Shown piece by piece: positions 61,193-64,000 of a stretch of 64,000 bases of DNA; position 1 is the stretch's first letter; each line of letters begins with the position of its first letter. The notes below the pieces were generated by a model that made no database searches, had not been told where the DNA came from, and was given only the letters and a program-made list of their open reading frames with translations. The position numbers and the translations under genes were made by a program. This stretch comes from Vicingaceae bacterium (lineage in GTDB: Bacteria > Bacteroidota > Bacteroidia > Flavobacteriales_E > Vicingaceae), in NCBI GenBank assembly GCA_018402765.1, contig JAGYIE010000002.1, positions 930,001 to 994,000 of the forward strand, given 5' to 3'.

Positions 61193-61277
61193 GCCCGGGT
61201 GGTGAAACTGGTAGACACGCAGGACTTAAAATCCTGTGATCATTGCGATCGTGCGGGTTCAAGTCCCGCCCCGGGTA
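61193..61277 (+). tRNA. tRNA-Leu (anticodon UAA)
   Basis: An 85-nt class II tRNA. The acceptor GCCCGGG/CCCGGGT closes with a G-U first pair. The anticodon stem CAGGA/TCCTG encloses CTTAAAA (anticodon TAA). The T arm GCGGG/CCCGC is intact. Its 3' end at 61277 touches the stop codon of the serine recombinase on the other strand. Confidence 0.96.
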
Positions 61278-62846
61278 CTAAACGGGAATAATCTGAATTT
61301 TCAGTTTTATTCCCGTTTTTTTATGCTTGTTTTTTACTGATAATGAAGGGATTACGCTGAAAATTGAATTTATTCTCGTGGTTCGATAATCGTCATTTTT
61401 GAAGTCATACAGAATCCCGTCCGGAAACACCATTTTTTGAATGCTTCTCTTTACCTCCAAATTGCCAGAATCCCACAATTCAGGGAGTTTTAGGGAATAT
61501 TTCAATGATAAATCAATGGCTTTTTCAAGGTTCGATAAATTAAAACCGTTGCTATACAAACTTTCCTCAATTTCATACTTCTCGGCTTCTAGCTTTTGCT
61601 TGAACTTCTCGTATTGACCTTGTGAGATTTCCTCAAAAACGTATCGCTCTTCCAATCTTTCTAGCTTCGTTGTAAATTCTAAAATTTGTTTTTGCTGTAC
61701 TGCGGTCTCTTGAATTTTAGCTTCATGTTCAGCCTTAAAAGTATAGTACATGATCTCCTTCATTGGAGCGATGTATTTCTTATCTTGAATTTGATAGCTC
61801 TTCAAAAGATCTGTAAACTTCTCGTGCATCATCTTAGCACTTCTATTTTCTTTTGCTCCGATACGGTTATTCTTGTAGTAATACAAACCTTTCTTTCTAA
61901 CCAAATACCCTGTGTATGGGGTGTCGCAATCTGATGAGCGAACGAACTGCTTTAAAGGAAGGTGTTCACAGTCTGCATTGTGTTTTTCTCCATATCCACG
62001 CTTATTTAATAGTTTATGAATCTTCAGGAATATTTCTTTTGATACTAAACCTTCATGTTTTCCCTCAATTACTTCTCCAGGGATGTGTGAACTTACTACC
62101 AAACCACAATAAAATGGGTTTCTATACAGGTCACTCAATTTCTTTGCTGTTATTTCTAAACCTTTTTTAGCTAATCGCTCGGAAATTTCATTGTGGGTGA
62201 TATCCTCATTTGCTTTCCATATAAAGGCATGTTTTAATATTTCGCCTTCTTCGTTGATAACAATATCCTGTTCTTTTCCTTTGCCCGGACTTAGGTTTGT
62301 ATAGCCAAACGGAATGGTTCCAATCCAATATCCTTTTCTTAGCTTTTCTCGCATACCTGATACCGATTTGTCTCTTCTCAGTTCGTTATCGAATTGACTA
62401 AACATGTAGTATAGGTTTTGTTGAAAAGAGCCAGCTGCTGTCATGGCATCTACTTCCTGCGTTGCTGAAAACGTTACGATACCTTGTTTTTTTAATTGAT
62501 CGCTTATATAAGCTCCATTTGCTCCAGTTCTTGAAAATCTATCGTAAGAATATACGATGATGTATGAAATGTCTTTTCTTCTGTTTACGAAAGTCAGCAT
62601 CTTTTGAAATTGCTTCCTTTCATCACTTTTGGCAGATTCGTAAGTTCCACCGAAATACTCAATTACTTCAATATTTTTTCGCTTTGCGAATTCTAAACAA
62701 TACTTCTTTTGTGTTTCTAAACTAGCATTGTTTTCGGCTTGTTCTTTCGTTGAAACCCTTGTGTAGATAACGGCTTTCCCATCAATATTAATCAACTGTG
62801 CTTTAGATTCTTTCGCAAATGGCTTAAAAATATCAAGGTTCTTCAT
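61278..62846 (-). CDS. Large serine recombinase (resolvase/integrase family)
   Basis: A 522-residue large serine recombinase. The catalytic domain (about 24-165) has the nucleophile S32 (YTRVSTKEQ), with YDRFSRTG and SATQEVDAMTAAGSFQQNLYY. The recombinase DNA-binding domain begins near GYWIGTIPFGYTN (172-184). The zinc ribbon is degenerate: only one Cys of the usual CxxC remains (RSSDCDTPYTGY) and the second pair is absent (YYYKNN). A coiled coil lies near residues 375-425. It should integrate or excise its host element without a transposon-type duplication. The stop touches tRNA-Leu; the C-terminus KTGIKLKIQIIPV is encoded by the tRNA terminator hairpin. Confidence 0.93.
   Translation of the reverse strand: MKNLDIFKPFAKESKAQLINIDGKAVIYTRVSTKEQAENNASLETQKKYCLEFAKRKNIEVIEYFGGTYESAKSDERKQFQKMLTFVNRRKDISYIIVYSYDRFSRTGANGAYISDQLKKQGIVTFSATQEVDAMTAAGSFQQNLYYMFSQFDNELRRDKSVSGMREKLRKGYWIGTIPFGYTNLSPGKGKEQDIVINEEGEILKHAFIWKANEDITHNEISERLAKKGLEITAKKLSDLYRNPFYCGLVVSSHIPGEVIEGKHEGLVSKEIFLKIHKLLNKRGYGEKHNADCEHLPLKQFVRSSDCDTPYTGYLVRKKGLYYYKNNRIGAKENRSAKMMHEKFTDLLKSYQIQDKKYIAPMKEIMYYTFKAEHEAKIQETAVQQKQILEFTTKLERLEERYVFEEISQGQYEKFKQKLEAEKYEIEESLYSNGFNLSNLEKAIDLSLKYSLKLPELWDSGNLEVKRSIQKMVFPDGILYDFKNDDYRTTRINSIFSVIPSLSVKNKHKKTGIKLKIQIIPV
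61280..61321 (+). terminator. Terminator of the tRNA-Leu operon, inside the recombinase 3' end
   Basis: AAACGGGAATAA (61280-61291) pairs with TTATTCCCGTTT (61307-61318), with an inner CTGA/TCAG extension and a T run. The complementary strand is the last ~13 codons of the recombinase gene, so the element may mark the integration junction. Confidence 0.75.
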
Positions 62847-63039
62847 TTTTTTCTTTTTTCGATATATGTTTTACAATGATTCCACAAAAACATTCGAGTG
62901 TCTCAATAACATGTTTTGCTTCATCTTCTTTTATCTCTTCAAATCCCGGAAAAGTTTTAAGTCTTTCCGGTGTCATTTTTTCTACTTTTAGAATTTTTCG
63001 ATACGTATCCGCATGAGATTCATTTTTTCTCGTTTGCAT
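62833..63039 (-). CDS. Small unknown protein upstream of the recombinase
   Basis: A 68-residue charged protein (MQTRKNESHADTYRKILKV ... VIETLECFCGIIVKHISKKEK). It overlaps the recombinase start by 14 nt, a sign of coupling. It is probably helical, with a CFC segment but no recognised domain. An inner ATG at 62976 is an alternative start (47 residues) and would remove the overlap with the 44-codon ORF. It could be a recombination directionality factor or regulator, but that is a guess from position. Confidence 0.6.
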   Translation of the reverse strand: MQTRKNESHADTYRKILKVEKMTPERLKTFPGFEEIKEDEAKHVIETLECFCGIIVKHISKKEKNEEP

Positions 63040-63122
63040 TTTTCTTCACTTCGCCAATCTCTCAAATCTTTTGATAAGACCGGTGTTCGTAGTGATGCCT
63101 GAATATTTCTCAAAGCCTTCAT
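62988..63122 (-). CDS. Possible 44-residue basic peptide
   Basis: A short ORF whose ATG overlaps the stop of the 220-aa gene (ATGA). It would encode MKALRNIQASLRTPVLSKDL followed by an Arg/Lys-rich tail ending RIRIEKF. It overlaps the 5' part of the 68-codon gene by 52 nt unless that gene starts at its inner ATG. The coding reality is uncertain; the ATGA overlap is the main support. Confidence 0.3.
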   Translation of the reverse strand: MKALRNIQASLRTPVLSKDLRDWRSEEKCKREKMNLMRIRIEKF

Positions 63123-63781
63123 AATTTTTGTTTTACTACTCTATTTATGTGCACTGCTTTTCCATCTTCCTGATTAATGGAAATACTCTGAAAGGCAGCA
63201 TCCCTCATAATATCAATAACCTTTTTATCAATAGGCATCTTCTCTTCGCATTCCACTCTATCGAGTTGACCTTTACGTTTGATTATTTTAACGCTATGGT
63301 AATTTTTTTCTTGAATTAAATTCAATACTTTGACTTCCTTCTGTTCCAATGCTATTAGATTCAATTCCTTTGCCCAATGATGGATGCCGGGAAAGGTCTC
63401 TTTTATCAGTTCTGCAAGATGAATAACTAAGCATCCTACTCCTTCTAAGCTATCTATTAGTTTGCCATCTTTATTAAAAACGATTAAAATCGACTTTTCA
63501 CCAATCATAACATCTAACACACGATTTTCTAAATAACTAAGCGATATACCATTTCTGCTTGTTTGTTCGTTTAGTGATGATGATAATTCCTGAATGGCAT
63601 CTTGGTTTAAATAGAGCTCGGAGGCTTGATAACGAATTGCCTGACAAATACCATTAATAAAAGAAAGAGATACATTTTGATCAGAGTACAATAAAACACA
63701 GTCCACTTCTTTGTTTCGTAAACAAAAAAGTAATTGCTCCAGAGGAGCTTGGTTGGCTGTTATACTGTTATTGCTCTTCAT
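63119..63781 (-). CDS. Unknown protein of the mobile element
   Basis: A 220-residue protein from the ATG at 63781 (MKSNNSITANQAPLEQLL); a longer in-frame start at 63811 overlaps the upstream coiled-coil gene. I do not recognise it. Features are a beta-rich middle (VDCVLLYSDQNVSLSFINGICQAI; DVMIGEKSILIVFNKDGKLI) and a basic C-terminus (VKIIKRKGQLDRVECEEKMPIDKKVIDIMRDAAF). There is no signal peptide or membrane helix. It sits 4 nt after the coiled-coil gene and upstream of the recombinase, in a likely operon. A DNA-binding or regulatory role is possible. Confidence 0.65.
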   Translation of the reverse strand: MKSNNSITANQAPLEQLLFCLRNKEVDCVLLYSDQNVSLSFINGICQAIRYQASELYLNQDAIQELSSSLNEQTSRNGISLSYLENRVLDVMIGEKSILIVFNKDGKLIDSLEGVGCLVIHLAELIKETFPGIHHWAKELNLIALEQKEVKVLNLIQEKNYHSVKIIKRKGQLDRVECEEKMPIDKKVIDIMRDAAFQSISINQEDGKAVHINRVVKQKL

Positions 63782-63785
63782 AAAG

Positions 63786-64000
63786 CTACTTTTTCTTCTT
63801 GTACACTTCAATCAGTTCGCATTGTGCCTGATACAAACGCTCGTCTTTTTCTTTGATTTGAGCATGTGCATCATTGAGCTGCGAAGTCATATTTTCGATT
63901 ATTTTTTTTAATTCGCTGACTTCGTCCTTGAATTTGCTGTTTTCTTTTTCGAGCATCTCATACTTGGCTTGCAACTGCCTTATATGCTCTCTTAATTCCT
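63786..64000 (-). CDS. Coiled-coil protein (5' partial at the right edge)
   Basis: The frame stays open to the right edge, so this is the C-terminal ~71 residues of a longer protein; the TTG at 63974 is not needed as a start. The visible part is a continuous heptad coiled coil (IRQLQAKYEMLEKENSKFKD, ENMTSQLNDAHAQIKEKDERL) ending YKKKK. Many Bacteroidota regulators carry an N-terminal HTH and such a tail, but nothing N-terminal is visible here. It starts the visible part of the minus-strand island operon. Confidence 0.6.
   Translation of the reverse strand, partial: ELREHIRQLQAKYEMLEKENSKFKDEVSELKKIIENMTSQLNDAHAQIKEKDERLYQAQCELIEVYKKKK

Follow-up and report, generated by a model that had tools for sequence, protein, structure and literature searches.

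Why should the gene of a large serine recombinase end at the very base where a tRNA gene ends? The window analysed here, a stretch of 64,000 nucleotides (C9:930001-994000) from the genome of a Vicingaceae bacterium, carries near its right end a tRNA-Leu(UAA) gene and, on the opposite strand, the gene of a 522-residue recombinase whose TAG stop codon (61280-61278, minus strand) directly abuts it (Table 1). ARAGORN places the discriminator base A73 of the tRNA at 61277, with a C next to it at 61278, and the hairpin that follows (61280-61318 and a T7 run) folds at -18.9 kcal/mol (z -6.1), its opposite strand encoding the C-terminus of the recombinase. An earlier note on this DNA had claimed both that the stop codon abuts the tRNA and that the last recombinase codons are the complement of the terminator hairpin; the coordinates confirm the former and the fold the latter. 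Our reading is that the window ends in a mobile element integrated site-specifically, by its own large serine integrase, at the 3′ end of tRNA-Leu(UAA), and to this account as a whole we assign a probability of about 0.87.

Table 1. Coordinates of the features at the tRNA-Leu(UAA) junction (window numbering unless a contig is named).
Feature	Position	Strand	Basis or remark
tRNA-Leu(UAA), integration target	61193..61277/8	+	ARAGORN and junction comparison
Predicted partition of tRNA-Leu(UAA)			Bases 1-70 host; 71-72 crossover dinucleotide; A73 onward from element
T-loop antisense CTTGAAC, proposed zinc-domain motif of attB half-site	61257..61263	-	+13..+19 from centre
Direct repeat GGTAC of attL	61274..61278	+	5 bp identical at C10:35489-35493
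Inferred central dinucleotide GT, acceptor-stem bases 71-72	61275..61276	+	attP dyad and dinucleotide/tRNA tree
Element part inside the window	61277..64000	.	Continues to C9:994283, then C10:1-35493 by flank synteny
Large serine integrase ORF	61278..62846	-	Catalytic, recombinase and zinc-domain-like regions, coiled coil
Element-supplied intrinsic terminator of the tRNA	61280..61322	+	Fold and covariation in 19 relatives
Terminator parts	stem 61280-61291 / 61307-61318; T7 61316-61322	+	Fold
T7 (A7 in the gene), 8 in close relatives	61316..61322	+	Frameshift creating the junction TAG
Small gene beside the integrase, conserved in related elements	63119..63811	-	No Pfam or PHROG match

Identity of the recombinase and extent of the element

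The recombinase comprises a Resolvase domain (PF00239, 6e-25) followed by a Recombinase domain (PF07508, 2.5e-9) and, with these two Pfam domains only, lacks DUF4368, a feature of multi-targeting serine recombinases (PMC10083194). Its catalytic serine and arginine motifs are intact, the RVS and DRFSR columns being invariant in the family alignment. The AlphaFold model, whose overall pTM is only 0.39, shows strands at residues 302-336 and coiled-coil helices at 356-433; a zinc-domain region is present alongside the coiled coil, with zinc ligands that look reduced, and Foldseek matches the model to serine integrase complexes at an E-value of 5e-16. The curated CcrA/CcrB/CcrC families failed on score (CcrB reached 75 bits, the cut-off being 900), and within the window no small partner recombinase was seen near the integrase gene.

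The contig ends 283 bases beyond the window (C9:994283, window position 64283), and the far side of the element was found through synteny. Downstream of the same tRNA-Leu, a congeneric genome (G002) has the remnant of a recombinase (56% identical), then tRNA-His and a copper ATPase, and this native downstream flank with tRNA-His and the Cu-ATPase is found in the window's genome from C10:37220 onward. The earlier note had suggested searching beyond position 64,000 for attR, and a direct repeat does exist there, GGTAC at C10:35489-35493, preceded by sequence homologous to element ends elsewhere; a search for a long second copy of the tRNA end found none, the repeat measuring 5 bp only, and attR in this genome was recognised by its homology to other left ends. 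The element would accordingly span C9:991278-994283 and C10:1-35493, ∼38.5 kb plus a contig gap, as two contigs with an unproven middle. Just outside the far GGTAC, the sequence AAAACA-GTATCTTAA-GAAA-TTAAGGTGC-ATTTTTT folds as a terminator (-8.7 kcal/mol), the native terminator of tRNA-Leu displaced to the far side of the element, which bears out the earlier proposal that the terminator was swapped on integration. Between this end of the element and tRNA-His lie ∼1.5 kb of decayed DNA resembling transposase remnants (L127:16000-16700). In a second congeneric genome (G001, L008:1300-1500), the 3′ end of this tRNA-Leu is precisely where a run of Ns sets in, and the genome thus offers no clean empty site.

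The cargo includes amidase, endolysin and tail-collar genes, and these lysis and tail functions mark the element as phage-related. Viral contigs gave no match, and phage and plasmid records contained distant relatives only. One run of the cargo (L084:11020-19962, on C10) may be a defence or stress module: it encodes a kinase-AAA+ fusion together with a pair of Hsp70-like proteins and one long coiled protein.

Recurrence of the junction in other genomes

Homologues were drawn from public genomes as well as from 41 relatives, and their loci were oriented and scanned for tRNAs. At 47 of 55 loci, the antisense 3′ end of a tRNA or tmRNA starts no more than ∼70 bases from where the recombinase match ends, the targets being tRNAs for Leu, Arg (five anticodons), Met, Ser, Asn, Pro, Glu, Val and Tyr, and tmRNA; for at least three of the eight loci without a visible tRNA, the cause is a contig end, a stretch of Ns or a tandem copy. 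Among 296 held-out Bacteroidota genomes, 21 carry relatives; these yielded 26 new loci, and 18 of them have the same tRNA junction, adding Ala and Lys to the targets. None of four unrelated large serine recombinases from the same genomes adjoins a tRNA. The hairpin, moreover, covaries across 19 relatives (91.2% of cells paired; 45 double changes against 17.4 in shuffled alignments). The junction is thus not a chance arrangement, and ending at a tRNA is what this recombinase clade normally does rather than an oddity; the earlier remark that tRNA 3′ ends are unusual for serine integrases stands with respect to the literature, but not within the clade. The same note had counted recurrence in unrelated genomes with different neighbours against an attachment site. 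It does recur in just such genomes, yet, as the element travels as a whole and brings its own terminator along, this supports the att-site reading.

Elements in which both ends could be compared agree with this. Three Winogradskyella-type genomes (G045, G049 and G052) carry an element of 99.95-99.99% identity at tRNA-Arg(ACG), while the flanks are ∼80% identical, which points to a very recent transfer between species; the sequence common to its attL and attR, GTGACCTCGA, is the 3′ end of tRNA-Arg(ACG). This element is ∼54 kb long, and 45.8 kb of it are 99.99% identical between two of the genomes (L130-L132, L139-L142, L145-L160). Shared terminators are frequent in convergent genes and the hairpin in the window is a real terminator, so an ordinary overlap, in which a chromosomal recombinase shares a bidirectional terminator with the tRNA and no att site is involved, would in principle account for the junction. 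We give that explanation practically no credence, as the junction recurs at many tRNAs and at tmRNA in unrelated genomes, identical elements sit between diverged flanks in different species, and far ends with repeats were found.

Several further loci were noted along the way. In G048:C1 (L203/L223 and L112), an element lies at tRNA-Tyr and its probable left end resembles the 3′ end of tmRNA, as would follow from a jump between tmRNA and tRNA-Tyr in that direction, two targets that both carry CC at bases 71-72. In G039 (L168, L183), members of a more distant serine recombinase group (MATKFFLYARKSSEAEERQ...) end inside antisense tRNA-Ser and tRNA-Leu(CAA). A break after 7.1 kb of shared sequence between L095 and L118 has no att-like boundary and was not accepted as an element end, and a comparison of two G017 elements defined no ends because their cargo differs.

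Crossover point and choice of target

The earlier note placed the crossover in the 3′ end of the recombinase gene. The junction is indeed the attachment site, but the crossover is better placed at bases 71-72 of the tRNA than inside the hairpin, since the arm symmetry of attP, as reconstructed for the window's element and the Winogradskyella element, is centred there. On the recombinase tree, the 71-72 dinucleotide changes 6 times, where the minimum is 5, the shuffled mean 22.8 and none of 200 shufflings is as low, whereas the identity of the tRNA changes 23 times on the same tree. Indeed, recombinases that are identical over the compared region are found at Leu(GAG) and Arg(UCU), and others at Arg(ACG) and Arg(UCG). 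A dinucleotide that is kept while the tRNA switches freely is the pattern expected if the central dinucleotide must match. The base that follows is supplied by the element, mostly as A73, with G73 at Ser and Asn sites, and the direct repeats measure 5-10 bp across elements.

These observations also bear on which enzyme acted. Most tRNA-site islands are served by tyrosine integrases, and one encoded elsewhere on the element might have inserted it, with the serine recombinase a passenger at its end; the middle of the element was annotated gene by gene for some of the families. We hold this to be highly improbable, given that the target dinucleotide follows the phylogeny of the serine recombinase, that the repeats are not tens of bp long, and that the site has the geometry of a serine-integrase site.

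This geometry is seen in the arms. The antisense T-loop motif occupies +13 to +19 in attL and a similar motif, CTCGAAC, +18 to +24 in attP; the offset of 5 bp, with the T-loop copy nearer the centre, is as for the zinc-domain motifs of serine integrases, the LI integrase having its own at 16-24 in attP and 11-19 in attB (PMC3783163). Left ends were collected with a pattern derived from the left-end peptide, which already held the TCNAAC part of the motif but not its distance from the core; aligned, 18 distinct left ends show xTCRAAC at +18, and 17 of them a GT-type core. A candidate attR match at L150:6546 was due to chance and was dropped. We infer that the T-loop serves as the zinc-domain motif of the attB half-site, and if it does, all tRNAs and tmRNA can serve as targets.

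Integration by the element's own integrase would then proceed as follows. The 3′ end of tRNA-Leu(UAA) would serve as attB and be recombined with attP by the enzyme, one of whose subunits would recognise the tRNA half of attB through the acceptor stem, the T-stem and the T-loop motif of TTCRA type, a half-site common to all tRNAs and tmRNA. Strands would be exchanged at acceptor bases 71-72, and the chosen tRNA would have to carry the central dinucleotide of the element; the element would restore A73 and bring a new terminator, pushing the native one to its far end. As attP straddles the 3′ end of the integrase gene, the circular form of relatives encodes a conserved tail, which integration separates from the gene, leaving tRNA-antisense codons in its stead.

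Position of attP within the integrase gene

At 44 of the 47 loci, the recombinase frame enters the antisense strand of the tRNA, always in the same register, producing tails of the form V-x-x-x-G-[FLI]-E-P. When relatives are read in their circular form, the frame instead continues into the left end of the element and encodes a conserved tail, V[TEN]SxGQSSNFL[KN]EDIxLIISKS, with a core of SSNFLxEDIxLIISKS and a length that varies at the far end. An intact attP junction with this tail is found in a 42,847-bp contig of Aquimarina (G064:C28, L243-L246) whose two ends both lie in one recombinase gene, apparently a circular or tandem copy of a family element; ∼770 bases of that gene are missing between the contig ends. 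In most relatives, integration thus swaps the tail for tRNA-antisense codons.

The left end overlaps an attP arm that must be kept as DNA, and its conservation could in part reflect this constraint rather than one on protein. Integration may accordingly be as described while the open frame and the tail are mere by-products, the left end being retained as integrase-binding DNA and the tail having no function as protein, a view with which the variable tail length agrees. We regard this as a serious possibility, if on the whole a doubtful one. Of 32 clusters formed at 90% identity, 30 agree in their frame at the crossover; among 37 hairpins, the final 48 nt contain a stop in 1, 17 and 35 cases by frame, leaving frame 0 open in 36; changes in the tail fall mostly on third codon positions (545/349/1021); and a relative of 33% identity (L256) shows the tail pattern again, there at a tandem junction. 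A functional tail would probably act in the regulation of direction or stability, and a regulatory role is plausible by likeness to the repressor of phage BPs (PMC4557955).

The copy in the window departs from this scheme. Its gene has a run of 7 A where ∼95%-identical relatives have 8 and run on into the antisense strand of the tRNA; the one-base shift brings in, exactly at the tRNA junction, a TAG that is conserved in another frame. The stop abutting the tRNA therefore seems peculiar to the window's copy, and KTGIKLKIQIIPV is not the C-terminus of the family. The earlier suggestion that the C-terminus was swapped applies to the family, in which attP lies inside the integrase ORF and integration alters the end of the protein, but not to this frameshifted copy, whose ORF ends before the crossover and which would lack the conserved tail in the circular and the integrated state alike. 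The shift may be a sequencing (homopolymer) error, or the copy may be inactive. A 100% match of L123 over the short C-terminus was set aside, as it reflects two overlapping frames and L123 has 8 A's like the relatives. In L262, a distant relative at tRNA-Arg(ACG), a frame change also puts a stop at the tRNA junction, apparently independently.

Taken together, we tentatively propose, at somewhat short of even odds, that this clade reads the universal T-arm as attB and picks its tRNAs by the 71-72 dinucleotide, and that attP within its own gene works as a switch, in which the tail of the circular form and the host-tRNA-antisense tail would differ in their effect on the direction, activity or lifetime of the enzyme.

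Relation to known integration systems

The clade shares with phiC31, Bxb1 and Listeria LI/A118 the order of Resolvase and Recombinase domains, the coiled coil, short repeats and the 5-bp offset of the zinc motif. Those integrases, however, use sites in protein genes or other non-tRNA sites, and a review of mobilizable elements likewise has serine-integrase elements inserting inside protein genes, whereas the clade described here uses the 3′ ends of tRNAs and tmRNA and, unlike them, has a gene that itself crosses attP. Closest in target is DsiB of the Dehalococcoides ssrA islands, a serine recombinase of ∼540 residues encoded next to attL at the tmRNA gene, where insertion also restores the 3′ end of the RNA (PMC3146451). 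DsiB has a single target (ssrA), a crossover in the T-loop, a 20-bp repeat and a partner recombinase, DsiA (PMC3146451), and its T-loop crossover in ssrA is not what we see in the clade, with its many tRNAs, predicted crossover at bases 71-72 and repeats of 5-10 bp. Tyrosine-integrase islands in tDNA (Islander; NBU1 at tRNA-Leu) have the same kind of target and leave the tRNA functional, but belong to another enzyme family and cross over at the anticodon loop, the T loop or the T/acceptor junction; in phages of M. smegmatis, 10 of 10 tyrosine-type attB sites overlap tRNA or tmRNA genes. In the mycobacteriophage BPs, attP also lies in a coding gene and integration changes the C-terminus of a protein (PMC4557955); there it is the repressor gene that is cut (PMC4557955), whereas here it is the integrase's own gene, of the serine family. 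Our search of the open literature yielded no description of this clade, but prior notice of serine integrases at tRNAs may exist; the clade represents an integrase type not previously known to specify tRNA genes, with DsiB as the precedent for tmRNA.

As a working rule, serine integrases have been held not to specify tRNA genes. The finding runs counter to this, and it accounts for the ability of a single enzyme family to use almost any tRNA. Bases 71-72 together with the T-loop provide a rule for predicting or redirecting the target and, as attB occurs in all genomes, these integrases could find broad use as tools for insertion. Programs for island detection that expect a tyrosine integrase at tRNA sites will have overlooked elements of this kind. 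For the elements themselves, exchanging the tail would amount to a simple, self-encoded record of being integrated.
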